In this document: one piece after another, positions 22,369-48,549 of the stretch
Position numbering within the stretch: the stretch's first letter is position 1
How the letters are laid out: the number at the start of each line of letters is the position of its first letter
From: Levilactobacillus cerevisiae
Lineage (GTDB): Bacteria; Bacillota; Bacilli; Lactobacillales; Lactobacillaceae
Direction of reading: 5' to 3'
DNA length: 64,000 nucleotides
NCBI RefSeq assembly: GCF_003946245.1
Contig: NZ_RHNN01000002.1
Location: forward strand, 1-64,000
The notes under the pieces: model-generated
Seen by the model: the letters and a program-made list of their open reading frames with translations, nothing else
Databases searched by the model: none
What the model was told of the DNA's origin: nothing
Translations under genes and position numbers: made by a program

Positions 22369-22399
22369 ACCCCTTGACACTGTGTGAAGGTCAAGGGGT
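22369..22399 (-). terminator. hairpin overlapping the merR-like stop codon
   Basis: ACCCCTTGAC (22369-22378) pairs perfectly with GTCAAGGGGT (22390-22399). The right arm contains the regulator's stop codon. The U run is weak, so it may attenuate rather than block read-through into the deiminase gene. Confidence 0.6.
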
Positions 22400-23215
22400 G
22401 ATTTGGACGGAAATTTCCGTGATGTAATCGTGGCTGCTGGCGGCAAAGGTCTGGTCTAAAAAGTAGCGCTCGATGAAGGGCGTGGTCAGCCGCTGGTGGT
22501 GTTGCTGGGCGTACTGGACTAGGCGGTCATAGGCCATGGCAATGTTGTCGTAGCTGCCGAAATGCAACGTTGACAGGTAGGTGCCGGCGGGCAGGGTATC
22601 GCGAGTTAACGCGGCTGGAGTAGTGTTAAATGCGCAGGGCACGGCCACCCGGTAAGCGGTCGTCGCGGCGTCGGGGTCGCACAGCAACAGGGCCAAGCCA
22701 GCCGGTTGAACGGGGATGCTGGCCAACGTGTGGTACAGGCGCGCAAAGGCAGTGTCGATGTCAGCCTCGTCAGCCGCGGGCTCGCAGACCAGGTGGCGTT
22801 CAGGCTGCTGGGTCACCGAAACGGCGTCGTCACTGGGAAGTGAGGCGGGCGCGTCGCCCAATAGCGTGGCGAGCAATTCCCCGGCCTGATCCTGCTGCAC
22901 GTCTTGCTGGGCGAGTTGTCGCTGCTTGGCCTGTGCCAGCTGTTGAATGGCCGCGTCACTGGCGCCCAGCAACTGAGAAATTTCGGCCAAGGTGAACCCA
23001 CAGGCCTGGTACTTTTTAATTAAGGAAATTGTGGGGATTTGCGTCGAAGCATAGAAACGGTAGCCGTTGGCCAACACCGTCTGTGGCTTGAACAGGCCAA
23101 TCTTATCGTAGTGGCGCAACATCCGGGCACTGATTTTATTGATGGCGGCAAACTTGCCGATGGTGTAGCCAAGGTCGGCATCACTGGGATGGGACGACTG
23201 GTCATTGGGGGTCAA
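22391..23215 (-). CDS. MerR-family regulator with GyrI-like effector domain
   Basis: 274 residues. The MerR DNA-binding domain (YTIGKFAAINKISARMLRHYDKIGL, about residues 17-41, then ANGYRFYASTQI) is followed by a coiled linker (about 85-115) and a C-terminal GyrI/BmrR-type ligand domain ending HDYITEISVQI. BmrR-type proteins activate exporter genes on binding cationic lipophilic drugs; here the neighbour is the lipoprotein deiminase, so the target is open. The N terminus includes a short Ser/Asp extension before the fold. Confidence 0.88.
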   Translation of the reverse strand: MTPNDQSSHPSDADLGYTIGKFAAINKISARMLRHYDKIGLFKPQTVLANGYRFYASTQIPTISLIKKYQACGFTLAEISQLLGASDAAIQQLAQAKQRQLAQQDVQQDQAGELLATLLGDAPASLPSDDAVSVTQQPERHLVCEPAADEADIDTAFARLYHTLASIPVQPAGLALLLCDPDAATTAYRVAVPCAFNTTPAALTRDTLPAGTYLSTLHFGSYDNIAMAYDRLVQYAQQHHQRLTTPFIERYFLDQTFAASSHDYITEISVQITP

Positions 23216-23313
23216 GGCGACTGCTCCTTTCGTTGCGGCATTTTTTAAAGCTTACGCCACCTATTTTACAGGTCCGTGGGGGTGACGGCAATCATGAGGG
23301 ATTGCCCATGCCA

Positions 23314-23342
23314 TTGCCTTCGCCTCGGTTGCTTGCTATAGT
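23314..23342 (+). promoter_or_regulatory. promoter of the 23377 gene
   Basis: -35 TTGCCT (23314-23319), 17-bp spacer, -10 TATAGT (23337-23342). It lies 34 bp before the TTG start, which supports that start. Confidence 0.6.
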
Positions 23343-23376
23343 GGGAATTAACAAGGTTCAGGAGGGGCGCAATAAT

Positions 23377-24783
23377 TTGGATGACGAACGGAAATTACAA
23401 CCAGAAAAATATGCCGAAGTCGCGAAGGTAGTCGCTGCAGCCGACAATGAGCAGGTACTAGATTTTTTGACGCAGATGTTAGTCAAGGATCCGGAGCTAG
23501 CGCGAACGTTCAAGCGGCGGACAACTAAACGATCTGCGAGCGAGGCTTTTCAGAGTTATCACGCACAAATTGGCGATATTTTTAACGCTTACATGGATAG
23601 TGATGCCTTTATTGATACCTATAATGCTGGCGCGTTTACGGATGAAATCAGGAATTTTGTTGCGGATGACGTGCAGACCTTAATTAATGATCAGCAACTA
23701 AGCCTGGCTTTGCGGGTCGTGAACGATTTAGCAACGATGTTAGCTCAGCTGGATATTGATGATTCTGATAGTGAGCTCATCATTCTCAGTCAGGAGTGTT
23801 GCGAAGCTTGGGAGAACATCCTTGATCCAGCAAAGCCACCATTGCAACGGCGGGCCTTCAGGTGGTTTCAGAAACGCGCCAGTGAAGAAATGGGACCCCT
23901 TGAGGATTCGATTGAATACCTATTATTTAAACGATTTACCACACCTGATTTTTTAGAAAATAAGCTGAGCTGGACGGCACAAAAACTGCATGACGCCGAG
24001 CAACTTGAGGATGATTCGGAACGGACCTACTTTGGTGGTAAGTGGGCGGCGTATCATGTACAGGTGATGCAGGAACTTAATCGGCCAGCGAAAGAGGTCG
24101 AGCAGTTCTGCGTGGCCAATTTAAGCTACCAACCAGCGTTACAAAATTACGTCGAAAGTTGTGTTCAGCGGCAAGATTACGAGCCGGCAATTCGCATTTT
24201 ACAAGCGGGTAAAGAGCAGGCGCAGGGTCAGCACGGAAACGTAGCGGGATATAGCCGGCAACTTAGAAAGGTATACCAACAGGCCGGTCAGATAGAAAAT
24301 TACCAGCACGAATTGTGGCTGTTGCTCACAGCATATGATCCGGCTGATATTGACTTGTACCGAGAATTCAAACAGCTATATTCTCCAGAAGACTGGGTTG
24401 GTCAACGTGACAAGTTTTTTAAAGCGTTGCCACTAACGGTGGATCTCAAGCCATTATACGTTGAGGACCAGCTATACGATAAGTTACTAATTGCGGTGAT
24501 GGCTAATTCAGGCCTGGCAGGCGTCTACACCTATGAAGCACTGTTGAAACCGCGGTACCCTGAACACCTGCTTAAGAAATACAGTCAAACGGCGCAGAAT
24601 ATGGCAAGGAAAACGGGTGACCGCAAGCACTACCGGAAATTGGTTAAAATTTTGCTCCAAATGATGAATTACCCGTCTGGCGGTAATGAAGTGGCACGGC
24701 TTATTAAGGAGTGGCGGGTAACCTACGCTCGGCGCCCAGCGATGATGGCGGAACTCGATTGGTTTGACTCAATTCAGTTTTGA
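23377..24783 (+). CDS. SWIM-protein C-terminal-region homologue lacking the zinc finger
   Basis: 468 residues from TTG 23377 (AGGAGGGG 9 nt upstream and a promoter at 23314; the ORF extends back to 23233 without support). Residues about 18-160 align with residues 100-245 of the truncated SWIM protein at 37439 (QVLDFLTQML / QVRDFLTRVL; LDIDDSDSELIILSQECCEAWE / LDIDDSDGETMIIVQECVDAWE). The Cys-x-Cys...Cys-x-His finger of that protein has no counterpart here. The rest is an all-helical solenoid. No catalytic motif. It may be a natural finger-less paralogue or a gene that lost its 5' part. Function unknown; SWIM fingers bind DNA or protein. Confidence 0.7.
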   Translation: MDDERKLQPEKYAEVAKVVAAADNEQVLDFLTQMLVKDPELARTFKRRTTKRSASEAFQSYHAQIGDIFNAYMDSDAFIDTYNAGAFTDEIRNFVADDVQTLINDQQLSLALRVVNDLATMLAQLDIDDSDSELIILSQECCEAWENILDPAKPPLQRRAFRWFQKRASEEMGPLEDSIEYLLFKRFTTPDFLENKLSWTAQKLHDAEQLEDDSERTYFGGKWAAYHVQVMQELNRPAKEVEQFCVANLSYQPALQNYVESCVQRQDYEPAIRILQAGKEQAQGQHGNVAGYSRQLRKVYQQAGQIENYQHELWLLLTAYDPADIDLYREFKQLYSPEDWVGQRDKFFKALPLTVDLKPLYVEDQLYDKLLIAVMANSGLAGVYTYEALLKPRYPEHLLKKYSQTAQNMARKTGDRKHYRKLVKILLQMMNYPSGGNEVARLIKEWRVTYARRPAMMAELDWFDSIQF

Positions 24784-35418: not shown

Positions 35419-36909
35419 ATGGATATTGATCAAGGAATCTTAAACGCTGTCGAGCAAGCAGCACAGGGGGCTCCCAGCGTCCGGGCAAGTAAGCACACCT
35501 ACACGGAGAAGCAAATTAATGCCGAACTGACACGGGTGATTGGGTTTGCCACAGATTCGACGGTATTGGCGAAAGCTCAGTTTGACTCTGAGGGCTTAAA
35601 CGACTTTGCCCAAAGTCTCGTGATTTTGCAGATGCGGGTCTTTCACCGCAATCTGAAACAACTGACGGCGGAGTCCTTGGCTGATGTGGTGCTTGTTGGT
35701 TTTGCGGCGATTATCAAAGACGCAAATCTACTGACGGGCATGGTTCAAATCGTGCATTTATTCGCCGACTATCTGGAAGAACGGGGCCTGGCCCAATTTG
35801 GTTTGACCGCTAAATTTGATGCAGTCATTGAACAACGCCGTCCGGACATTGCCGCGGCGGCTTGGGAAGCGGAGCCGGTATTGGGAAAGCCAGAACTCTT
35901 TTCAAATGCCCCGCTGACGCTAGCCCCTTTCGAGGTGACCAACATGTTTGCCCAGACTGAAGTCGGTGATGTCGATTTCAATGACTTCTTAGACCAGATA
36001 GCAAGACGGCGCAATCCCGGGCAATTGCGCTTGGCTGAAGGTTTATTCGTGACGGATCACCCCATTTACTATTCCTTGTTGGGCTGGGCAGAGCGCCTGG
36101 CTCATGGGTCAGTCAACTTTCCCGAGGAGCAAGTTGACATTTACGTGGGCGCCCTCTGGGCATTTGCGAAGGGCCTAACTACGGCGGGACTCATTGACTT
36201 GGCAAAGGTGGTTCACTGGTATTTGAAATTCTGCTTGGACCACGAACTCATTCAAGCGCGCGAGTATGCTAAGTTGCTGAAGTTCAGTAATCGCGGGATT
36301 GTGAGAGCCGTTGCGATTGGACCACTCACACCTGACAACATGGACTTGTTTCCACAGTGGCATGAAGAAGGCGTGGCCTTGGCTGATAAAATTTTTACCA
36401 AGCCCAATTACACCATTGATGCGGTCAAGGCGGAGAAAATTCTGGGTCAGTTGCATTTACAACCCGTTGCCACGTTGATGGATCCAACGATAAAATTAGT
36501 CCTAAAAAAGCCGCTGTCGGAGGACCAAATCATGATGGAACGGCTCCGGGCACGGGACTGGGCCGCTGATACGTCAAAATTACTTGGCAACGCGCTGTCC
36601 GCGGAAGACCGTTTGATTTACGAGTTAGCCATTTCCAATATTCACCGCTATATGACGGGCGACTTAAACCGGCAAGTCAAGCAGTGGTCTGGCGACAGCT
36701 TGGAAGCGGCCATGATTCACCTGTTTCAAACGGAGGACGGGTTTGACCGCAAGCCGGCCTTCCTGCGGTATTTCCAGCTCTATCTGGGCCGTCTCCACGA
36801 TGAAGGCGTGATTAAAAGTTGGCCTGCGCTACACAAGGGTCTAGATAGAGCCATGTATGAATATATTTGTTGTAGCACGGTGCGGTTGCTGGCTGAATCC
36901 GCGCGTTAA
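35419..36909 (+). CDS. unrecognised ~500-residue cytosolic protein, paralogue of 43651
   Basis: 496 residues, no signal peptide or membrane helix, mostly helical. It shares an end-to-end layout with the protein at 43651-45147: MTAESLAE/LTAESLAD near residue 95, (D/N)DMFAQ...DFNEFL/VDFNDFL near 190, LKFCLD...LLK(A/F)SNRG(V/I)(I/V)R near 290, ADAIFTKPNYTID/ADKIFTKPNYTID near 340, and W-(S/T)-x-DSL-x-A-A at the C terminus followed by LFQT and FLRYFQ. No catalytic signature was recognised. The two copies flank the XrtG cluster. AGGGGTAG precedes the ATG. Confidence 0.75.
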   Translation: MDIDQGILNAVEQAAQGAPSVRASKHTYTEKQINAELTRVIGFATDSTVLAKAQFDSEGLNDFAQSLVILQMRVFHRNLKQLTAESLADVVLVGFAAIIKDANLLTGMVQIVHLFADYLEERGLAQFGLTAKFDAVIEQRRPDIAAAAWEAEPVLGKPELFSNAPLTLAPFEVTNMFAQTEVGDVDFNDFLDQIARRRNPGQLRLAEGLFVTDHPIYYSLLGWAERLAHGSVNFPEEQVDIYVGALWAFAKGLTTAGLIDLAKVVHWYLKFCLDHELIQAREYAKLLKFSNRGIVRAVAIGPLTPDNMDLFPQWHEEGVALADKIFTKPNYTIDAVKAEKILGQLHLQPVATLMDPTIKLVLKKPLSEDQIMMERLRARDWAADTSKLLGNALSAEDRLIYELAISNIHRYMTGDLNRQVKQWSGDSLEAAMIHLFQTEDGFDRKPAFLRYFQLYLGRLHDEGVIKSWPALHKGLDRAMYEYICCSTVRLLAESAR

Positions 36910-37117: not shown

Positions 37118-37438
37118 GGAGTGTTCTTTAAGATGACATTGCCGTGACAACCGCTGGACTGGCAACGTTTGGCTACCATGGTTTGATACAGCCTAAATTT
37201 GGTAAACGGTAGGCCAGCTGGTTTAGACCGTGCCGTCAATATCCAGTGTTATATCCTTACTATGTAGCGGGCTATACCAACAATTTAACCTTTAACCTTT
37301 TTAGTTGCCAATTAGACCTGCTTAAAAGATCCGCGGAATTTTCAGACGTCATCGCTCAGCTAAATCATTTTTCATGAGTACGCGGTGGACCCGCAAATCT
37401 GATATAGTAGTAGCAAGGCTACGAAAGGAGATCAGCCA

Positions 37439-38248
37439 ATGGACTGGGAAACACTGTTTCAATCTCAGATTCTCAATCGGGGATACGATTACTATCAACG
37501 CGGCTTGGTTAGTCAATTTAAGCAAACACCTACCCGCATCACCGGCGTGGTCACGGGCTCCACGACGTACCAGGTCAGCATAGAAATCAGCGGTGGTCGT
37601 TTCGTGCAGGGCGATTGTACCTGTCCCTACGCCGCGGAGGGTAAGTATTGCAAACACATGGCGGCGGTTTTATTCACCTGGGAGTCAGCGGCCGACGACA
37701 CCGACCAGCCAACCGGCAAAGCAACGTCGACGGTCAGTACGCTGGTGGCAAATGCGAGTGACCAACAGGTGCGCGACTTTTTGACGCGAGTCCTGACGGC
37801 TGACGGTCGGTTGGCCCAGCAGTTTAAAACCATGGTCAGTCCGGCTGCCAGCAAGGAGGCTTTGCTGGAGTACCGCTTGCTCATCACCAGCCTGTTCCAA
37901 TCACACATGGACCGCTCTGGCTTCATTGATTATCGCGCGGCAAGGGCCTTTGGCAATGATGTGGCGGACTTTATGCAAGGGGACGTCCAGAAGATGATCA
38001 TCGACCAACGCTTGGGGCTGGCCTTTGACGTGGTGGCGGTCGTGGCTGAGCGGGTAACCAATTTAGACATCGACGATTCCGATGGCGAAACGATGATCAT
38101 CGTGCAAGAGTGTGTGGATGCCTGGGAACAAATCGTCCAGCAAGCCGACCTGACCTTGCGTCGCCAAATGTTCCAATGGTTACGGCACAGGCTAGTGACA
38201 ACATCACAATTGATGGTAAGTTTTCGGATTGGGATAACGCGAATTTAA
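37439..38248 (+). pseudogene. SWIM zinc-finger protein, truncated and fused to surface-protein DNA
   Basis: Begins with AAAGGAG and ATG. Residues about 10-80 hold the SWIM finger: GCxCPxxxxxxxYCKHM-type, seen as GDCTCPYAAEGKYCKHMAAVLFTW. Residues 100-245 match the helical region of the 23377 protein up to F-Q-W-L (near 38185). There the homology stops and the frame runs into the DNA that encodes the XrtG-type surface protein, ending after about 20 unrelated residues. Family proteins are normally twice this length, so this is a truncated gene. The junction coincides with a visible change in base composition. Confidence 0.82.
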
Positions 38249-39327
38249 CGACTGGCAATAATGAAGCGACATTTGCTATGGAGAGTAATGGCAAGTACGT
38301 TGACGTTTACGTGAACATGAAATACGGTCAGGTACCTGGTTATGGGGATTACATTTTTACCATTAACAATAAGACCTATCATGTTTGGTCTGGTAATATT
38401 CCGAGCACGGTGGCCAAAGGGGATATCAAACCTATTACGTTTAGTGGTGGGACCTATAATACTGGGGACCAATATGGGACAGTCGCTAAGGGGTATATCA
38501 CTAACGATGGGACGCATAGTATTGCTGAATTCCGGGTTGACCTGAGTATGTTTGGCCTCACTAGTTCTGACAACGGTGAAAAAGTATCAATGACTAACCC
38601 TAACGTTGGGGGAACAGCTACTACGACGGTTGACGATTTGAGCAACAAGGACGTTAGCGCTGATGTCACGGCGACGTCCGGTGTGATCAATGGGAAGGCT
38701 GAGTCCAGTTCCAAGGACACGACGACTACCGATAACAATGCCAATAACGATAATGATAATTTGAATATTAAGATTGACGGCAAGTATGAAGACTGGAAAA
38801 ACGTCACGTTGACTGAGGGCTATGGTGGATACACAGCAATGGTGAGTGACGGTGACAAGGTCTATGTTTTCGCCAAGATGAAGTATGGCCAGGTTCCCAA
38901 AGTCGGCTACAAGTTTGAGTTCAATGGCAAACAGATTTGGGCTTGGGCTACTGACATTCCAGATACCATCGTTAAGAATGGTGAGGCAACCGAGGTTAAC
39001 TTCTATGCCGGTAATACGGAACAGGATTACAATGCTAATGCTGACTATGGTAAGGTCGGCGTGGGTTATGTGTCGAGCGATAGTGAGGGTCATAGCATTA
39101 TCGAATTTGAAATTGACACCGGTAAGCTAAAGCTCTCAAGCATGACTGGACAAACCATTACCATGAATAATGCTAGTATTGGGAACGAAAAGGTCACCGT
39201 TGCCGGTGGGTCCACGGGTCCCTACGTGATCGCCGGAATCGGCGTGCTCATCGCGGGCTTCGGTTACTGGCGACTCCGCAAGTCGGGTAAACTGAAACGC
39301 CGGCAGGACCAGATGTCAGGTAAGTGA
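38176..39327 (+). pseudogene. XrtG-type surface protein (Firmicu-CTERM) that lost its signal peptide
   Basis: From ATG 38176 the frame reads MVTAQASDNITIDGKFSDWD: TAQA-SD looks like the end of a signal peptide and cleavage site, but the hydrophobic part is missing because upstream DNA now belongs to the SWIM gene. Two related carbohydrate-binding-like (CBM9/DOMON-type) repeats follow (IDGKFSDWDN... and IDGKYEDWKN...), separated by a Ser/Thr/Asp/Asn linker. The C-terminal tripartite sorting signal is a Gly-rich lead, one hydrophobic helix (YVIAGIGVLIAGFGYW), and a basic tail. There is no ribosome-binding site. The gene lies 57 bp upstream of xrtG, the usual target position. Confidence 0.78.
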
Positions 39328-39384
39328 GCAAGGTGTCGCTGTGACCGCATTCGTTTGACAAGTTAACTAATAGGACTGGTATTG

Positions 39385-39984
39385 ATGAGAGTAAGTATTC
39401 TACTGGGAATCGTGGTGTGGCTGTATATCCTATCAGTGTTAAAACGAGCTCGGCTATCCGCCTATTATTTTATTGCGGGGAGTGCCGGACTCTTCTTTAT
39501 CCTGACAGCGATTAGCCGGCCGTATTGGGTCTGGTTCTTCACCCACGCAGTCATTCACGGGGTCGCCTTATTCAATGATGTGACGCAATGGTGCACCATT
39601 ATGTACAAGATGGGACTCGTTTACATCTCAAACTCCGGCAACTCCGTCATCATGTCGATTGACTACGAATGTTCTGGCATCATTGAAACCTGTGCGTTCG
39701 TGGCGCTGGTGGCGTTCTTCCCGATGTACAAGCGGCGTGAAAAGGTGTTCTACTCAGTATTTGGCCTACTGTACATCTTTGCCATTAACGTGTTGCGCCT
39801 GTGCGTGGTGATTACCTTCGTCCACTTTGGCGGCGGGGAGACCTTCTTCCTGGCCCATTCCATCCTGGGCCGCCTCATCTTTTACGGCCTGATTATTGCC
39901 CTGTACTACAACGTCTTTACCTATTCTCAGTTGGCGCAAGGACTGTATCGGGAATTTATCGATTGGAGGCACGATAAACTGTGA
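39385..39984 (+). CDS. xrtG: exosortase family protein XrtG
   Basis: 199 residues from ATG 39385. A polytopic membrane protein of the Gram-positive exosortase/archaeosortase family (XrtG, TIGR03110). The three invariant residues are present: Cys96 in DYECSGIIE, Arg138 in INVLRL, His158 in LAHSILGR. It is expected to cleave a C-terminal tripartite signal on a surface protein at the membrane, probably attaching it to a lipid or glycan carrier. It overlaps the glycosyltransferase gene by 4 nt and heads a four-gene operon (39385-43400). Its obvious target, immediately upstream, is broken. Confidence 0.92.
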   Translation: MRVSILLGIVVWLYILSVLKRARLSAYYFIAGSAGLFFILTAISRPYWVWFFTHAVIHGVALFNDVTQWCTIMYKMGLVYISNSGNSVIMSIDYECSGIIETCAFVALVAFFPMYKRREKVFYSVFGLLYIFAINVLRLCVVITFVHFGGGETFFLAHSILGRLIFYGLIIALYYNVFTYSQLAQGLYREFIDWRHDKL

Positions 39985-41348
39985 TGTACTGGATCAATCT
40001 AGCACTGACCAGAATGGGATTCTGGATTACGTGGGCGCTGATACCGATTATCGTGGAAATTATTCCCGCAATCGTTTCCACGATAAAATTAATGCGCCTG
40101 CACCTCCACCAGCCCAAACTAGTGCCACCCGGAAAATGGCCATGGGTCACGATTATCGTGCCCGTTTACAATTCCGAGGACACCTTATTTGAGTGTATCC
40201 GCTCCATCAATGAACAAACGTATCCCAAGAGTGCCATGCAGGTAATCCTGGCCAATAACCAGAGTACCGACGACAGCTTCGGCGCCTACGCCAAGGCCCA
40301 GAACACGTTTCCCGAATTAATCCTGCGCTACGTCAACACGGATAAGGGAAAGGCGCGGGCCCTGAACACCGCCATCTACGAGAGCATCGGCATCTACGTC
40401 ATCAACATCGATAGCGATGGTCTCCTGGAAAAGAATGCCGTCAAGAACATGGTGCTTCAATTTGAAAATGACACCAGCATCGCCGCTATGACCGGGGCCA
40501 TCCTGCCGAAGTGGCAAATGGTCCAGAACGTCAAGGGCCTTTGGCACAAGATGCTGGCGAAAAATGAATACTACGAGTACGCGCAGGCGTTTCTCTCCGG
40601 CCGAACGATTGAGTCCTCGCGGGATCAGTTGTTTACCATGTCGGGGGCCTTCTCCGCGTTTCGCCGGGAAGTCTTGATGGAAACCTTCCTCTACGACATT
40701 GACAGTATTGGGGAGGACACCGATATGACCTTTCAGATTCGGACGCGGCTGGGCAAAAAGGTGGTCATCTGTGCCGACGCCATTTTCTACGTCGAGCCCA
40801 TCTCCGGCTTCTCTGAGCTCTACACCCAGCGGCAGCGTTGGCAACGGGGGGAGTTGGAGGTCACCGAGAACTACATGGCCCAGTCGTCCAGTCTGAAACG
40901 CTTCTTCAACAATTTCTTGGTTCGGCGGATGATGATTGATCACACGTTTGTCTTTCCCCGAATGATTTGGACTTTCGCCAGCATCGTGTTGATTGCCTTC
41001 GGGTATTCCACGTTGGTGGTGGGGATGTCCTACCTGTTAATCTATTCACTCTACGTGTTCGTGGCGCTGATCAACTTTGCCAGTGTCGCGATCCTGTTGC
41101 GCCAGTACCCCAGTGAGCAGCACTACTACCTGCATCTCTGGTGGGTGACGCTGACCCTGCCCATCTACCAGTTCGTCAACTCGTGGATTCGGCTGGTCGG
41201 CATCATTAACGCCATGACCACCCAGGCCACCTGGCGGATGCGCGGGATTTCTGAAGAATTTCACCGACTGACCGCCGTCCTCCGTGACGATGGTCATACG
41301 CTCCGCGAGCAGTATCGACGGAAACGGCAGCAGCGGAAAGGAAAATGA
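39981..41348 (+). CDS. XrtG-associated family 2 glycosyltransferase
   Basis: 455 residues, GTG start overlapping the xrtG stop, GGAGG 11 nt upstream. N-terminal membrane helix, then a GT2 catalytic domain (VTIIVPVYNSEDTLFECIRSI, NIDSDG as the D-x-D metal site, IGEDTDMTF, QRQRWQRGE as the Q-x-x-R-W motif) and two to three C-terminal membrane helices. The arrangement is that of processive polysaccharide synthases and of TIGR03111, the glycosyltransferase encoded with XrtG. It probably builds a glycan that decorates or anchors the sorted protein. Confidence 0.9.
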   Translation: MMYWINLALTRMGFWITWALIPIIVEIIPAIVSTIKLMRLHLHQPKLVPPGKWPWVTIIVPVYNSEDTLFECIRSINEQTYPKSAMQVILANNQSTDDSFGAYAKAQNTFPELILRYVNTDKGKARALNTAIYESIGIYVINIDSDGLLEKNAVKNMVLQFENDTSIAAMTGAILPKWQMVQNVKGLWHKMLAKNEYYEYAQAFLSGRTIESSRDQLFTMSGAFSAFRREVLMETFLYDIDSIGEDTDMTFQIRTRLGKKVVICADAIFYVEPISGFSELYTQRQRWQRGELEVTENYMAQSSSLKRFFNNFLVRRMMIDHTFVFPRMIWTFASIVLIAFGYSTLVVGMSYLLIYSLYVFVALINFASVAILLRQYPSEQHYYLHLWWVTLTLPIYQFVNSWIRLVGIINAMTTQATWRMRGISEEFHRLTAVLRDDGHTLREQYRRKRQQRKGK

Positions 41349-41776
41349 GTATGAAGCAACGATCCTATAAAATTAAATCATACGTGAACGCCAGTCACGC
41401 GGTCCGCTGGAAATCCGGGACCGGGAAGAAGCACAACCACACCTGGGAAATCGTCTGTGAACTGCACGTGTTTGAGGGGATGGTCTCCTTCTTTGACATC
41501 GAAAAATCCCTGGGCAAGGCCATCAACGCCTTATCCGGGCAATATTTAAACGACCTGCCAGAATTCAAGACGGTCAACCCCACCGTGGAAAATGTCACGG
41601 AATACCTGTTCAACGAAATTGACGGCATCCTGCGCCGGAGCAACGCGGTCCTCCTGCGCATCGAGGTCAGTGACTCGCCAACCCGGTCCTTCTGCATCGA
41701 CGTGACGGAACGTAAATTCCCAACCGAAGCGGAAGTCGCAGCCGAGGTGGCGAAGCAGGGGAATGGCGATGCGTAG
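41345..41776 (+). CDS. 6-pyruvoyl-tetrahydropterin-synthase-like protein of the XrtG cluster
   Basis: 143 residues. PTPS-type fold with zinc ligands His18 (NASHAVRW), His30 and His32 (KKHNHTWE), and NPTVENVTEYLF as the family's helix. This is the TIGR03112 variant found only beside XrtG. It overlaps the genes on both sides (4 nt upstream, 14 nt downstream). The reaction is unknown; the pterin-synthase active-site Cys is not evident near the usual place, so it may make a different product. Confidence 0.88.
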   Translation: MSMKQRSYKIKSYVNASHAVRWKSGTGKKHNHTWEIVCELHVFEGMVSFFDIEKSLGKAINALSGQYLNDLPEFKTVNPTVENVTEYLFNEIDGILRRSNAVLLRIEVSDSPTRSFCIDVTERKFPTEAEVAAEVAKQGNGDA

Positions 41777-43400
41777 ATTCTATCGGTTCAGTCAAGCAGT
41801 GATCAACCTCTTTTGGCGCGTCCTGTTTTTTCTGACCCTGTTCTTCGCCGTCACGTCGCCCAACATTATCTTGGGTGACAACAATACGTTTGGGACCAGT
41901 ACCACGATGCTCACGACCGGGTTGGTGATTGGGCTGGTGGTCATCGCCATCGCAAACTACGCCTATCCGCGGGCCCACGCCTGGCTAGTCCGGGTGTTCA
42001 TCACGCAACGGCTGCGGACCGGCACGATTCTGCTGGTGATGGTGCTGATTGGACAGATTTTCTTTGTTTATTTCGTGCACCCCAACAGTGGGTTTGACTC
42101 GGGGATGTTGCTGCATACGGCGACGGATCCCAGCAGTGTCTTGGACCCGGACATCACGTCTTATTTCAGCCTGAACCAAAACAACTTGCCCATCATGCTG
42201 TTCATGCACTGGATCTCAACGACCTTTAATCAAACCACTTGGGAATTCTTTGACTTCATCACCTTATTCTTCGTGGACTTGTCAGCCATCTGTAACTTGG
42301 CGAGCGTCTGGGTCCTGAAGAAAAAAGCGCTGGGCGCTGCCATGTACATTCAGGTTGGCTGGTTGGCGGTTTTTCCCAGCATTATCATGCCCTATACTGA
42401 TGCCTGGGGACTGCCGTTGGTGTCGTTTTACATGCTCTGCTACTTCGTGATGCGAAAGTCCACGATTCATTCCCTGATTCGGGCGTCAGCCGCCAACGGT
42501 TTTGGGATTACCGTGATGCTGACGTATTTCATGAAGCCATCATCAATTATTCCGGTGATTGCGATTGTCATTATTGAAATTTTAATGGCGATGGTCAATC
42601 ACAAACATTTGCACATGGAGGCGTTGTTTATTGCCTTTGCCATGGTCCTCTTCGTTGGCCGTAGCGGCTACGAGACCTATCAATACGTGAATCATAAAGT
42701 TGAAAATCAAACGTACATTCAGATTGATAAATCCCGCGCCATCCCGGCCATTCACTTTGCAGCGATGGGGGTCTACGGTCAAGGGGGCTACAGTTGGTGG
42801 CAAGCCGTTGAAATGACGTTCTTGCCAACTAAGCAGCAGAAGACGGACTACTCCGTGATGATGCTGAAGAAACGCTTGAAGAAGTTAGGACCAGTCGGGT
42901 ACCTGAAATTTCTGGTCATGAAGCAGCGCAATAACACCGCTGACGGGACCTTTGGCTGGTTAAAGGAAGGACACTTCTTCCTGGAAAATCAAAAGCCCAA
43001 TAACAAGGGCATCACCAACAAGCTCAAGAACTTCATTTACCTGTACGGGAGACACATCGCTGACTTCCGGTTTGCGGCCCAGTTGTGGTGGATCACGCTA
43101 CTAACGATCATTGCACTGGGCTTCGGACCCGAACGCCGGGTCATTCAAATTCTGCGGCTGTCGATGGTCGGGGGCTTTGCCTTCCTGCTCCTGTTTGAAG
43201 GTGGCCGGAGCCGGTACATCATTCAGTATTTGCCGATTCTGCTCCTGCTCGCCACCATCTCGTGGGACCGCGCAGTGGCCAACGTCATGCGCCTGGTCAA
43301 TTGGTACCAGGCAAAGCTGGCCGCGGCGATTGCGGCGGATCGGCCGGGTGAAGAACCCGTGAAGCAGGATTCGGTTGGTTCGGTGAAGTCAGTTAAATAG
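41763..43400 (+). CDS. XrtG-associated large membrane protein (TIGR03766-like)
   Basis: 545 residues, about 11-13 membrane helices, with an extracytoplasmic loop carrying a GT-C-type arrangement: FVHPNSGFDSGMLLHTATDPSS and YFSLNQNNLPIMLFMHWIS after TM4. QYLPILLLLATISWDRAV is the last helix. Such proteins transfer sugars from polyprenyl carriers outside the membrane; the XrtG clusters of other lactobacilli and streptococci carry this family. A GT-C role is inferred. Last gene of the operon. Confidence 0.85.
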   Translation: MAMRRFYRFSQAVINLFWRVLFFLTLFFAVTSPNIILGDNNTFGTSTTMLTTGLVIGLVVIAIANYAYPRAHAWLVRVFITQRLRTGTILLVMVLIGQIFFVYFVHPNSGFDSGMLLHTATDPSSVLDPDITSYFSLNQNNLPIMLFMHWISTTFNQTTWEFFDFITLFFVDLSAICNLASVWVLKKKALGAAMYIQVGWLAVFPSIIMPYTDAWGLPLVSFYMLCYFVMRKSTIHSLIRASAANGFGITVMLTYFMKPSSIIPVIAIVIIEILMAMVNHKHLHMEALFIAFAMVLFVGRSGYETYQYVNHKVENQTYIQIDKSRAIPAIHFAAMGVYGQGGYSWWQAVEMTFLPTKQQKTDYSVMMLKKRLKKLGPVGYLKFLVMKQRNNTADGTFGWLKEGHFFLENQKPNNKGITNKLKNFIYLYGRHIADFRFAAQLWWITLLTIIALGFGPERRVIQILRLSMVGGFAFLLLFEGGRSRYIIQYLPILLLLATISWDRAVANVMRLVNWYQAKLAAAIAADRPGEEPVKQDSVGSVKSVK

Positions 43401-43650: not shown

Positions 43651-45147
43651 ATGGCAAAAGACGAATTTTTTGAAAGAATTTGGCAGGCCACAAAGGATCT
43701 GGACAGTGTTCGCAAGCCGTTACCGAAAGAGATGAGTCAGGAACGAGTTTTCACTGAAATGACTAAAGCTAGGGGCTTTTTACAAGATCAAGCGACGCTA
43801 AATAATTTCAGTGGCTATTCGGGCGGGCTAGAAAGCCTATTGGGCACAATCGTTACGGTCCAAGTCCTTTGTTTCAATCGGGATGTTGACCAAATGACGG
43901 CTGAGTCTCTAGCAGAGGCCGCGCTGATCGGCTTTAGAACATTTACGTCATCGCCTGAGGAATTAGCAGAACTGGCAAATGCAACAAAATTTTTCTGTGC
44001 CTACTTAGAAAAGGCACACTTGGCGGCTAGCGGATTGACGGCCGACTATGAAAAGCGGGTACAAGAGTTACAGCCAGACGTTGCGGCATTCATGAACCAG
44101 CCGACATATGCGGACAACGATGATTTTTACAATCACATTTTTGCGAATGATCCCGTCATGTTATTACCGGTAAACCAAGATGACATGTTTGCTCAGGATC
44201 AGAACCTTTTTGGCATTGACTTTAATGAGTTTCTGGCCCAGGTGGCTAAGAAACACAATCCGGTGCAACTCCAGCTGGCTTATGTTCTGTTTCTGACGGG
44301 ATTCCCCATATACTCTATCCTATTGACTTGGGGCGAGCGCCTATCCACGACAACTAAATCTTTGACAGAAGATGAATACAGGTTGCACATCGGGACGCTC
44401 TGGTCATTTGCGGATAGATTGACGACGGCTGGAATTGTCGCCCTGTCTATGGTCATTCACCAATTTTTGAAATTCTGTTTAGACAAAGGAAAAATTGATG
44501 CGCGGGCGTATGCACTCCTGCTGAAGGCTAGCAATCGGGGTGTCATCAGAAGCGTCGTCATGAGTGATGGCCTGCATTTCCAAAGAGAAGAATGGCGCCA
44601 AAAGAGTCAAGAGAGTATCCAATTGGCGGACGCCATCTTTACGAAACCAAACTATACTATTGATGTTGCAAAGGCTGTTGCGCAGCTAGAAGCCCTGAAC
44701 TGGCAACCGGTCGGCATGGCGGCGGATGCCTTGACCCGGCTAACGTTGAAGAATCCCTTATCAGCGCGGATAATCGCGCGAGACCGAGCTGGTGCTCAAG
44801 ACCGTTTGACTGAGATCAACCAGGTTCTGGCTAGCACAGTTGCGACAGCGGACCTCACCGTGTATAGCGAGGCCGTTTTGCAGCTGCATACGATTATGAC
44901 GCAAACGCTACACCGTCAAAAACGACAGTGGACCAAGGACAGTTTGTACGCGGCATTGCTGCAACTCTTTCAGACCAACCGTGAGCTGGATAGTCGCCCG
45001 ACTTTCTTGCGGTATTTTCAAATCTACTTATTGGAAACGGACCGCGCGGACGCCATTAAGGACTTGGTAGCACTGAATAGGGCTTTAGCACGTTCAAGTG
45101 ATTTTTACGTGACGACCAGTGCAAACGCATTGGCGGCGAAGGACTAG
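43651..45147 (+). CDS. unrecognised ~500-residue cytosolic protein, paralogue of 35419
   Basis: 498 residues, soluble, mostly helical. See 35419-36909 for the shared blocks; both proteins are within two residues in length. Differences concentrate in the N-terminal 60 residues. Its A+T content is higher than that of the XrtG operon, and its own promoter lies in the A/T-rich 43540-43640 stretch. AGGATGTG precedes the ATG. No known domain was recognised. Duplication around the XrtG operon suggests either transfer together or repeated insertion at a paralogous pair. Confidence 0.75.
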   Translation: MAKDEFFERIWQATKDLDSVRKPLPKEMSQERVFTEMTKARGFLQDQATLNNFSGYSGGLESLLGTIVTVQVLCFNRDVDQMTAESLAEAALIGFRTFTSSPEELAELANATKFFCAYLEKAHLAASGLTADYEKRVQELQPDVAAFMNQPTYADNDDFYNHIFANDPVMLLPVNQDDMFAQDQNLFGIDFNEFLAQVAKKHNPVQLQLAYVLFLTGFPIYSILLTWGERLSTTTKSLTEDEYRLHIGTLWSFADRLTTAGIVALSMVIHQFLKFCLDKGKIDARAYALLLKASNRGVIRSVVMSDGLHFQREEWRQKSQESIQLADAIFTKPNYTIDVAKAVAQLEALNWQPVGMAADALTRLTLKNPLSARIIARDRAGAQDRLTEINQVLASTVATADLTVYSEAVLQLHTIMTQTLHRQKRQWTKDSLYAALLQLFQTNRELDSRPTFLRYFQIYLLETDRADAIKDLVALNRALARSSDFYVTTSANALAAKD

Positions 45148-46089: not shown

Positions 46090-48549
46090 ATGGCAGTAGA
46101 TTACGATTCCAAGTCATACTTGGAAAAAGTTGACGCATGGTGGCGTGCCACTACGTACCTTTCCGGTGGTATGATCTTCCTGAAGAGCAACCCATTGTTC
46201 TCAGTAACGAATACCCCGCTTCAAAAAGACGACGTTAAGGTTAAGCCTATCGGACACTGGGGTACTATCTCAGGACAAACTTTCCTGTACGCCCATGCCA
46301 ACCGTTTAATCAACAAGTACGGCTTGAACATGTTCTATATCGGTGGTCCCGGTCACGGTGGCCAAGTTATGGTAACAAACTCTTACCTGGACGGCACCTA
46401 CACGGATGCTTATCCTGAAATTACTCAGGACCTCGAAGGGATGTCACGTCTGTACAAGCGGTTCTCATTCCCTGGTGGAATTGGTTCCCACATGACTGCC
46501 CAAACGCCAGGTTCCCTTCACGAAGGTGGAGAACTTGGTTACTCTCTGTCACATGCTACCGGTGCCGTTTTAGATAACCCAGACCAAATTGCCTTTACGG
46601 TTGTTGGTGATGGGGAAGTTGAAACTGGCCCAGCTATGACTGCATGGCACTCCATCAAGTTCTTGAACCCTAAGAACGATGGTGCCGTATTACCAATCCT
46701 TGACTTAAACGGGTTCAAGATTTCTAACCCAACGTTGTTCTCACGGATGAGCGATGACAAGATTGCTAAGTTCTTCGAAGGCTTAGGCTGGTCACCACGT
46801 TTCCTTGAAAACGACGATATCCATGACTACATGACTTACCACGAAAAGGCTGCGAAGTTGTTTGACCAAGCAATTGCTGACATCAAGCAAATTCAAAAAG
46901 ACGCTCGCGAAAACGGCAAGTACGAAGACGGTGAAGTTGCCGCTTGGCCAGTTGTTATCGCTCGTCTGCCTAAAGGTTGGGGCGGTCCTCAAAAGAACCC
47001 AGCCGGCGAACCTATCGAAGGTTCCTTCCGTGCTCACCAAGTTCCACTTGGCTTAGCACAAGGTAAGCTTGACGAATTACCAGAATTCGAAGCTTGGATG
47101 AACTCATACAAGCCAACCGAATTATTCAATGCTGATGGTTCATTGAAGGCAGAAGTCGCTGACTTCGCTCCTAAGGGCGACAAGCGGATGGCTGCTAACC
47201 CAGTTGCCAATGGTGGCCGTGCACGTGGCGAAAAGCCAGAAACGCTCGACTTACCTAACTGGAAAGACTACGCTAACGACATCAACGCTTCTAACCGTGG
47301 GACGAACTTGCCAAATGGCAACCAAAACATGGACATGAACGTTCTGTCAACCTTCTTTGCTGGCGTTGCCACGAAGAACCCAACGTCATTCCGGATATTC
47401 GGACCTGACGAAACCATGTCTAACCGTCTTTGGGAAATGTTCAAGATTACCAACCGTCAATGGATGAGTAAGGTCAAAGAACCAAATGACCAATACGAAG
47501 CCCCAGAAGGCCGTATCTTGGATGCCCAATTATCAGAACACCAAGCTGAAGGTTGGCTTGAAGGTTACACCTTAACTGGTCGTACCGGTGTGTTCACTTC
47601 TTACGAATCATTCTTGCGGGTTGTCGACTCAATGACGACGCAACACTTCAAGTGGATCCGTCAGGCTGCTGCTGAACCATGGCGTAATGATTACCCATCA
47701 TTGAACCTGGTTTCAACTTCAACCGTATTCCAACAAGACCATAACGGTTACACCCACCAAGACCCAGGTATGCTGACCCACTTGTCCGAAAAGAAGTCTG
47801 ACTTCATTCGCCAATACCTGCCAGCAGATGCTAACTCACTCTTGGCTGTCTTTGACCGGGCCTTCAACGACCGTCAAAAGTTGAACCATATCGTTGCTTC
47901 TAAGCAACCTCGTCAACAATGGTTCTCCGTTGCCGAAGCTGAAGAACTGGCTAACACCGGTTTGAAGACTATCGACTGGGCTTCCACTGTTGCTGAAGGT
48001 GAAGATGCTGATATCGTCTTCGCTTCTGCCGGTGTTGAACCAACCATCGAAACGTTGGCTACTGTTGACTTGATCAACGAAGCTTTCCCAGCTGTTAAGA
48101 TGCGTTACGTCAACATCGTTGAATTGGAACGTCTTCAAAAGAAGAACGGGCCTTTGAACGACGAACGTGCCTTGAGCGATGCTGAATTCAGCTCATTCTT
48201 CGGCGAATCCGGGACTCCTGTTGTCTTTGGTTTCCACGGTTACGAAGACTTGATCGAATCATTCTTCTACGAACGTCAACACTTAGGCTTGCACGTTCAT
48301 GGTTACCGTGAAGACGGTGATATCACGACTGCTTACGACATGCGTGTATACTCCGAACTTGACCGTTTCCACCAAGCCAAGGATGCCGTTAACACCTTGA
48401 TCGCTAAGGGTGTAATTGACGAAGCTGCCGGTAAGGCCTTCGACAAGAAGATGGATGACATCTTAGCTAAGCACATGAAGATTACCCGTGACGAAGGTCG
48501 CGATATCGAAGAATTCACTAAGTGGCAATGGACCCCATTGAAGAAGTAA
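46090..48549 (+). CDS. xfp: xylulose-5-phosphate/fructose-6-phosphate phosphoketolase
   Basis: 819 residues, full length. Thiamine diphosphate enzyme splitting xylulose 5-phosphate to acetyl phosphate and glyceraldehyde 3-phosphate, the key step of heterolactic fermentation. Motifs: GHWGTISGQTFLYAHANR, YIGGPGHGGQVM, the ThDP/Mg site GDGEVETG...LDLNGFKI, and FRIFGPDE. Codon use is strongly biased to a small optimal set, unlike its neighbours, as expected for a very highly expressed gene. GAAGGAG precedes the ATG. Monocistronic with a strong terminator. Confidence 0.97.
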   Translation: MAVDYDSKSYLEKVDAWWRATTYLSGGMIFLKSNPLFSVTNTPLQKDDVKVKPIGHWGTISGQTFLYAHANRLINKYGLNMFYIGGPGHGGQVMVTNSYLDGTYTDAYPEITQDLEGMSRLYKRFSFPGGIGSHMTAQTPGSLHEGGELGYSLSHATGAVLDNPDQIAFTVVGDGEVETGPAMTAWHSIKFLNPKNDGAVLPILDLNGFKISNPTLFSRMSDDKIAKFFEGLGWSPRFLENDDIHDYMTYHEKAAKLFDQAIADIKQIQKDARENGKYEDGEVAAWPVVIARLPKGWGGPQKNPAGEPIEGSFRAHQVPLGLAQGKLDELPEFEAWMNSYKPTELFNADGSLKAEVADFAPKGDKRMAANPVANGGRARGEKPETLDLPNWKDYANDINASNRGTNLPNGNQNMDMNVLSTFFAGVATKNPTSFRIFGPDETMSNRLWEMFKITNRQWMSKVKEPNDQYEAPEGRILDAQLSEHQAEGWLEGYTLTGRTGVFTSYESFLRVVDSMTTQHFKWIRQAAAEPWRNDYPSLNLVSTSTVFQQDHNGYTHQDPGMLTHLSEKKSDFIRQYLPADANSLLAVFDRAFNDRQKLNHIVASKQPRQQWFSVAEAEELANTGLKTIDWASTVAEGEDADIVFASAGVEPTIETLATVDLINEAFPAVKMRYVNIVELERLQKKNGPLNDERALSDAEFSSFFGESGTPVVFGFHGYEDLIESFFYERQHLGLHVHGYREDGDITTAYDMRVYSELDRFHQAKDAVNTLIAKGVIDEAAGKAFDKKMDDILAKHMKITRDEGRDIEEFTKWQWTPLKK

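Follow-up and report, generated by a model that had tools for sequence, protein, structure and literature searches.

In the stretch of Levilactobacillus cerevisiae DNA analysed here (64,000 nucleotides, referred to as the window), the remnants of a SWIM zinc-finger protein gene and of a Firmicu-CTERM protein gene meet in different reading frames at 38174-38190, ahead of an XrtG operon that is intact (Table 1). Both truncations, their one meeting point, and the intact forms of the genes and their order in related species are directly supported by our data. We consider it likely that a single deletion brought the downstream Firmicu-CTERM gene, from its signal-peptide cleavage region onward, up to codon ~249 of the SWIM gene. 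One such deletion would explain the two truncations together, and we infer that the lesion was one event. The lesion is an ordinary pseudogenisation in a known, little-studied system, real and mildly useful. The loci used for comparison come from other species of the genus, with all 35 genus genomes searched including the window genome; the window lies on contig 12 of a draft genome of 3.375 Mb in 82 contigs.

Table 1. Features around the junction (positions in the window)
Feature	Position	Strand	Remarks
5' remnant of SWIM zinc-finger protein gene	37439..38187	+	codons 1 to about 249 of about 550
Junction zone	38174..38190		CTERM homology starts 38174/38178, SWIM homology stops ~38188
Firmicu-CTERM protein gene without start, RBS, signal peptide	38174..39327	+	two family-domain repeats, C-terminal sorting segment kept
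Exosortase family protein XrtG, intact	39385..39984	+	TIGR03110 253.6 bits, cut-off 102.75; low dN/dS
XrtG-associated glycosyltransferase, intact	39981..41348	+	TIGR03111
6-pyruvoyl tetrahydropterin synthase-related protein, intact	41345..41776	+	TIGR03112
XrtG-associated glycosyltransferase, intact	41763..43400	+	TIGR03766

The SWIM remnant and its family

The open reading frame at 37439-38248 comprises 269 aa and matches the Pfam SWIM family (PF04434) with 31 bits, the cut-off being 19.6. SWIM zinc fingers follow the motif CxC...CxH, and the one in the remnant reads CTCPYAAEGKYCKH. The frame reaches its stop at 38248, out of frame with the CTERM gene behind it. Among the 35 genus genomes, 15 contain a SWIM match (E <= 0.001) if the window genome is counted, i.e. 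14 of the 34 others, and 12 of these 14 have an unbroken frame of 542-593 aa; the two interrupted relatives are G013 (internal TGA) and L. brevis CD0817 (two frames). The remnant falls short of the about 550 residues that are usual for SWIM proteins of the genus, its homology reaching to about codon 249. The main alignment with all 14 relatives stops at query residue 249-253, and with the nearest relative as the query (554 aa, from L. mulengensis) the match in the window stops at 38188. A preliminary description of this DNA, made from the sequence, had placed the end of the SWIM homology near 38185, which is borne out by these end points. In an alignment of 13 relatives and a paralog, similarity extends through F-Q-W-L-R-H and is absent beyond, and 12 of the 13 relatives continue; the row of G013 was stopped at its TGA (225 aa). 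The SWIM gene had also been called destroyed. This holds for its 3' half, which is gone, but the open reading frame is shortened rather than lost: the first ~249 codons, including the zinc finger, are still open and are preceded by the RBS-like AAAGGAGA.

A second SWIM-family gene is found in the window at 23233-24783 (516 aa). It lacks the 5' part bearing the zinc finger and starts beside an opposite-strand gene (22391-23215) that we take to be MerR-like. Both SWIM genes of the window genome are truncated, at opposite ends, and are ~40% identical across their overlap. Searching the window genome with the full-length L. mulengensis protein returned the remnant and this paralog (23410-24771, 42% identical) and nothing else. 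Separately, a Lactobacillus MAG with affinity to L. fuyuanensis (L067, 5569-6565) has before the CTERM gene a SWIM sequence whose first 220 residues or so show no homology; some such lesions in relatives may be sequencing errors.

The Firmicu-CTERM remnant

The CTERM protein matches TIGR04145 with 226.9 bits against a cut-off of 50, in two stretches. Across the junction its frame reads ...SPNVP-MVTAQASDNITIDGKFSDW (also given as SPNVPMVTAQASDNITIDGKFSDW), and the same region in L. lanxiensis, L. wangkuiensis and L. mulengensis reads MKLWKLMMAGVVALGLA...VTAQASDNITIDGKFSDW. Homology to other Firmicu-CTERM proteins starts at the end of their signal peptide, at the cleavage site; on the DNA level the onset lies at 38174 against L. 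lanxiensis and L. wangkuiensis and at 38178 against L. mulengensis. The sequences of CTERM relatives agree with the earlier reading of an out-of-frame signal-peptide end with its cleavage site (VTAQA-SDNI) at the junction, which had been located within 38150-38200 and indeed falls there. Of the 15 named loci matched by the window Firmicu-CTERM protein, the 8 most similar belong to Levilactobacillus.

The CTERM frame is open from 38050, and from GTG 38110 onward it holds 405 codons without a stop. This GTG and ATG 38176 are the in-frame start codons close to the junction, and no RBS-like sequence was found before either of them; a GGGAGGA ribosome-binding site is present in the CTERM genes of 8 of 8 relatives compared and absent before the starts in the window. 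Signal peptides were judged by a hydropathy screen (best 12-residue window). Across the 35 genomes, 24 of 26 Firmicu-CTERM genes carry a signal-peptide-like hydrophobic segment in frame, with a best 12-residue mean of 2.16-3.2, and the two exceptions are the gene in the window (0.5 over the first 75 residues of the frame) and that of G024 (0.62). We take the N-terminal signal peptide as a Firmicu-CTERM trait from the genus itself; the sections of PMC3237569 considered here state it for LPXTG and PEP-CTERM proteins. In G024 (L036, contig C68), a signal-peptide-like sequence lies just upstream of the CTERM gene, in another frame than the mature part, by either a frameshift or a sequencing error.

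Given these data, it is hardly credible that the junction created a working fusion, in which the CTERM protein would be made from ATG 38176 or GTG 38110 without a signal peptide and would have an intracellular role. The long open frame would suit such a fusion, as would the low dN/dS of the remnant against three near relatives (0.10-0.12), but that ratio mostly reflects the time before the lesion, neither start is preceded by an RBS-like sequence, and a signal-peptide-like segment is the rule in the genus, the other exception having one out of frame upstream. Under the deletion that we favour, the target would no longer be secreted and would probably hardly be translated, and the SWIM protein would be reduced to an N-terminal fragment.

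The junction and its occurrence in the genus

The SWIM and CTERM homologies overlap by at most ~15 bases (38174-38188), with some bases assignable to either gene. This overlap allows a possible short imperfect microhomology, which perhaps primed the deletion; no paper on microhomology deletions in Lactobacillus was found in the open-licence literature searched. A 21-base junction pattern was searched for in the 35 genus genomes with up to 1 mismatch, the backward pattern serving as control. It occurs once in the window genome and once in G007 (1 mismatch), where the match lies on contig C63 and the SWIM gene on contig C38, and in none of the other 33 genomes; the backward pattern gave one match, in G013.

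These results bear on the question of whether the contig falsely joins two chromosomal places that are not adjacent. False assembly joins usually need a long shared repeat, and here the shared stretch is at most the ~15 bases given above. Furthermore, the junction pattern is present once in the assembly, no other contig yielded the lost pieces, and the same-strand placement of SWIM upstream of CTERM is the order in 3 of 9 relatives. Such an artefact therefore appears distinctly improbable to us, even for a draft genome in 82 contigs and even considering that GlyGly-CTERM sequences without a predicted signal peptide appear, according to the sections of PMC3237569 considered here, to be overwhelmingly gene-model or sequencing errors.

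The locus in related species

In L. mulengensis, the genes stand on the same strand in the order VOC, SWIM (554 aa), NERD-like, CTERM and XrtG, and in L. fuyuanensis, likewise on one strand, in the order VOC, SWIM, CTERM and XrtG, where VOC and NERD-like are names that we presume from the gene sequences. L. angrenensis has SWIM upstream on the CTERM strand, 2.0 kb away, the interval holding plus-strand ORFs (176 and 106 aa). These are the 3 of the 9 other genomes with a long CTERM gene in which a full-length SWIM gene precedes CTERM on its strand within ~2 kb. In G025 and L. brevis CD0817 the SWIM gene has the same orientation but is more distant, roughly 10 and 20 kb upstream, and a SWIM match is absent in 4 of the 9 (L. 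lanxiensis, L. wangkuiensis, G004 and G010). L. lanxiensis and L. wangkuiensis have VOC, NERD-like and CTERM, without SWIM. The order in the window is a gene pair that we take to be an ABC transporter pair, the gene for a 496-aa protein, the SWIM remnant, the CTERM remnant, XrtG and the TIGR03111, TIGR03112 and TIGR03766 genes; 3' of the latter follow a gene for a 498-aa protein and a large gene at 46090, presumably phosphoketolase-like. In L. mulengensis (locus L048), the NERD-like gene is interrupted by a TAG and the TIGR03111 glycosyltransferase aligns as two overlapping pieces in different frames, reflecting either decay or sequencing errors.

The deletion implied is about 1.3 kb on the L. 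fuyuanensis layout and about 2.2 kb on the L. mulengensis layout; if the ancestor was like L. mulengensis, the deletion would also have taken the NERD-like gene. The assembly gave no match to the signal-peptide segment and, for the 3' half of SWIM, none other than the 42% identical paralog at 23.4 kb. With 651 bases of L. lanxiensis that lead from before CTERM into CTERM as the query, the window genome matches only from 38174 (other matches E 0.29 and 0.55), and with the L. lanxiensis NERD-like protein it yielded nothing but a weak match (31%, contig C20), as did most genomes. The preliminary description had one event removing the SWIM 3' half together with the ribosome-binding site, signal peptide and promoter of the target. 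Gene order and sequence of the relatives argue for the first three, whereas the loss of the promoter is something that we infer. The deletion would have taken the CTERM promoter, and a scan of 801 bases from a relative gave no promoter-like site in the forward direction. In the window, 37200-39600 contains 9 promoter-like sites on both strands compared to 3.0 (sd 1.9) in shuffles; among the forward ones, three lie inside the CTERM remnant (38732, 38951 and 39142) and one inside XrtG (39439). A minor internal promoter for the XrtG operon is possible, as is transcription of the operon from the SWIM promoter or from the promoter-like sites in the CTERM remnant; after the deletion, any transcription of the operon would have to start at the SWIM promoter or at a minor internal one.

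Some observations count against the deletion. A close upstream SWIM gene occurs in only 3 of the 9 long-CTERM relatives and is missing in L. lanxiensis and L. wangkuiensis, which both rank among the three closest relatives by the XrtG operon, and the SWIM remnant is 54-55% identical to its L. mulengensis counterpart versus 92% for XrtG. The 496-aa gene stands upstream of the SWIM remnant where L. mulengensis and L. fuyuanensis carry the VOC gene, and the VOC gene of the window genome (80% identical) lies on contig C6 (L080, G000:C6:21146-21607), in surroundings where a comparison with the loci of four relatives gave no match beyond the VOC gene. From the gap between SWIM and XrtG identities, the displaced VOC gene and the 496-aa gene, we conclude that the neighbourhood was rearranged more than once. 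The SWIM-XrtG region is flanked by two 39% identical paralogs (35419-36909, 496 aa; 43651-45147, 498 aa), for which no Pfam or NCBIfam match was found at E 0.01; members of this family occur in 3 of the 35 genus genomes, i.e. the window genome, G013 and G018.

The junction could accordingly be one edge of a segment replacement, in which the native sequence from VOC through the signal peptide gave way to a foreign block, made up of the 496-aa gene and part of a SWIM gene, and the junction marks the recombination edge. The much greater divergence of the SWIM remnant than of the XrtG operon from the nearest relative points in this direction, as do the position of the VOC gene elsewhere and the rare 496/498-aa family flanking the region, a member of which stands ~24 bases behind the SWIM gene in G013. 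However, SWIM proteins are diverged across the genus generally (46% identity between L. mulengensis and L. fuyuanensis, but 87% between L. angrenensis and G025), and in the SWIM tree the remnant is closest to the gene of L. mulengensis (weak support, 80/78), whose SWIM stands upstream of CTERM. The G+C content of the remnant, 55% against 51% for the window, is not decisive, and a break inside a gene fits a deletion equally well. We regard the replacement as unlikely and keep to the single deletion.

The XrtG operon and its substrate

The four proteins of the operon score above the cut-offs of TIGR03110, TIGR03111, TIGR03112 and TIGR03766, and XrtG adjoins the target, as in a dedicated system. 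There is no stop or frameshift in any of these genes and dN/dS stays low. The catalytic residues of exosortases are Cys, Arg and His; between the XrtG of the window and 13 others, 11 positions with C, R or H do not vary, and these may include the catalytic ones. The sorting operon is thus intact in its coding sequence, as first described; its usual upstream region is gone.

The window genome has one XrtG gene and one Firmicu-CTERM gene, the two TIGR04145 matches being its two repeats. Each of the two families was found in 20 of the 35 genus genomes. All 26 CTERM genes lie within 1044 bases of an XrtG gene (gaps of 25 to 1044 bases between matches), and all 23 XrtG genes of the 35 genomes have a neighbouring CTERM gene, the split XrtG of L. 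brevis CD0817 being entered as one gene. The sections of PMC3237569 consulted regard a sorting enzyme as part of a dedicated system where the genome has just one target for it. It had been suggested that XrtG may serve other targets, to be sought in the genome by their shared C-terminal signal. The suggestion finds no support: the CTERM gene is the only one in the genome, all 26 CTERM genes found in the 35 genus genomes stand beside XrtG, and a search with the last 45 residues gave a best other match of E 0.42. A hidden second XrtG target was rejected on the basis of the TIGR04145 and C-terminal 45-residue searches, that other match showing 36% identity. XrtG and its partners would therefore seem to be left without their dedicated substrate. 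We see only a slim chance that in this species the operon acts on a substrate so far unrecognised or serves a second purpose; if so, the strain would be a natural target knock-out in which such a role becomes visible.

In L. brevis CD0817 (L052, 8205-9542), an insertion has split XrtG; it carries a 391-aa ORF, which we take to be IS256-type transposase-like, and the target gene retains a signal-peptide-like segment. This split and the out-of-frame signal peptide of G024 are signs of dispensability of the system, to which the present case adds.

As its enzyme genes are intact and the only target is beheaded, the strain would offer a natural control for the surface function of the target. XrtG and Firmicu-CTERM targets are hardly studied in the open-licence literature searched; PMC12854382, the one paper found there to name both, in the part considered here describes a complete XrtG system as over-expressed in L. 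plantarum strains activating interferon responses.

Age of the lesion and selection

No stops were found in either the SWIM or the CTERM remnant, and therefore the lesion is probably recent. With neutral evolution, every 0.01 substitutions per site would be expected to bring 0.71 stops over the two remnants together (0.29 + 0.42), which suggests that the lesion is younger than about 0.04 substitutions per site, if both fragments are free of selection. Between the window and the three nearest relatives, dS is 1.7-2.1 for the CTERM remnant and 0.7-0.8 for XrtG. The dN/dS of the CTERM remnant against L. lanxiensis, L. wangkuiensis and L. mulengensis, given above, compares with 0.16-0.24 among those three; against L. 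angrenensis, we obtained 0.142 for the window genome, 0.119 for L. lanxiensis and 0.078 for L. mulengensis. For the operon genes, dN/dS is 0.023-0.068 in pairs with the window genome, mostly above the 0-0.029 among the three relatives, and against L. angrenensis the window genome is somewhat above its relatives in each gene; dS is near saturation in many of these pairs, and the TIGR03111 sequences of L. wangkuiensis and L. mulengensis are partial. A slight relaxation of selection in the window lineage is possible. As proof of decay, dN/dS was discarded as not conclusive, considering the near-saturated dS and the partial sequences. The proposal that XrtG is on its way out is accordingly possible: lesions in relatives and the slightly higher dN/dS (perhaps an effect of saturation) speak for it, the unbroken operon and its low dN/dS against it.

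Comparison with known systems

The locus shares with the dedicated XrtG / Firmicu-CTERM system the gene set, the gene order, the adjacent target and the C-terminal sorting segment, and differs from it in a target without start, RBS and signal peptide. The Firmicu-CTERM protein of L. lanxiensis 13B17 is 75% identical over the mature protein and has the identical cleavage-site sequence VTAQASDNI, but, unlike the gene in the window, it has a complete signal peptide and RBS, and there is no SWIM match in that genome. In L. mulengensis 112-3, SWIM and the XrtG operon share a strand, with SWIM upstream, as in the window, whereas its SWIM protein has 554 aa, the signal peptide is full and an extra gene stands in between. 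GlyGly-CTERM proteins without a predicted signal peptide, as treated in the sections of PMC3237569 considered here, likewise combine a C-terminal sorting tag with the lack of an N-terminal signal; there, such cases are for the most part put down to truncation or error, with perhaps some non-functional genes among them. Unlike the system in the window, the GlyGly-CTERM system relies on sorting by rhombosortase.
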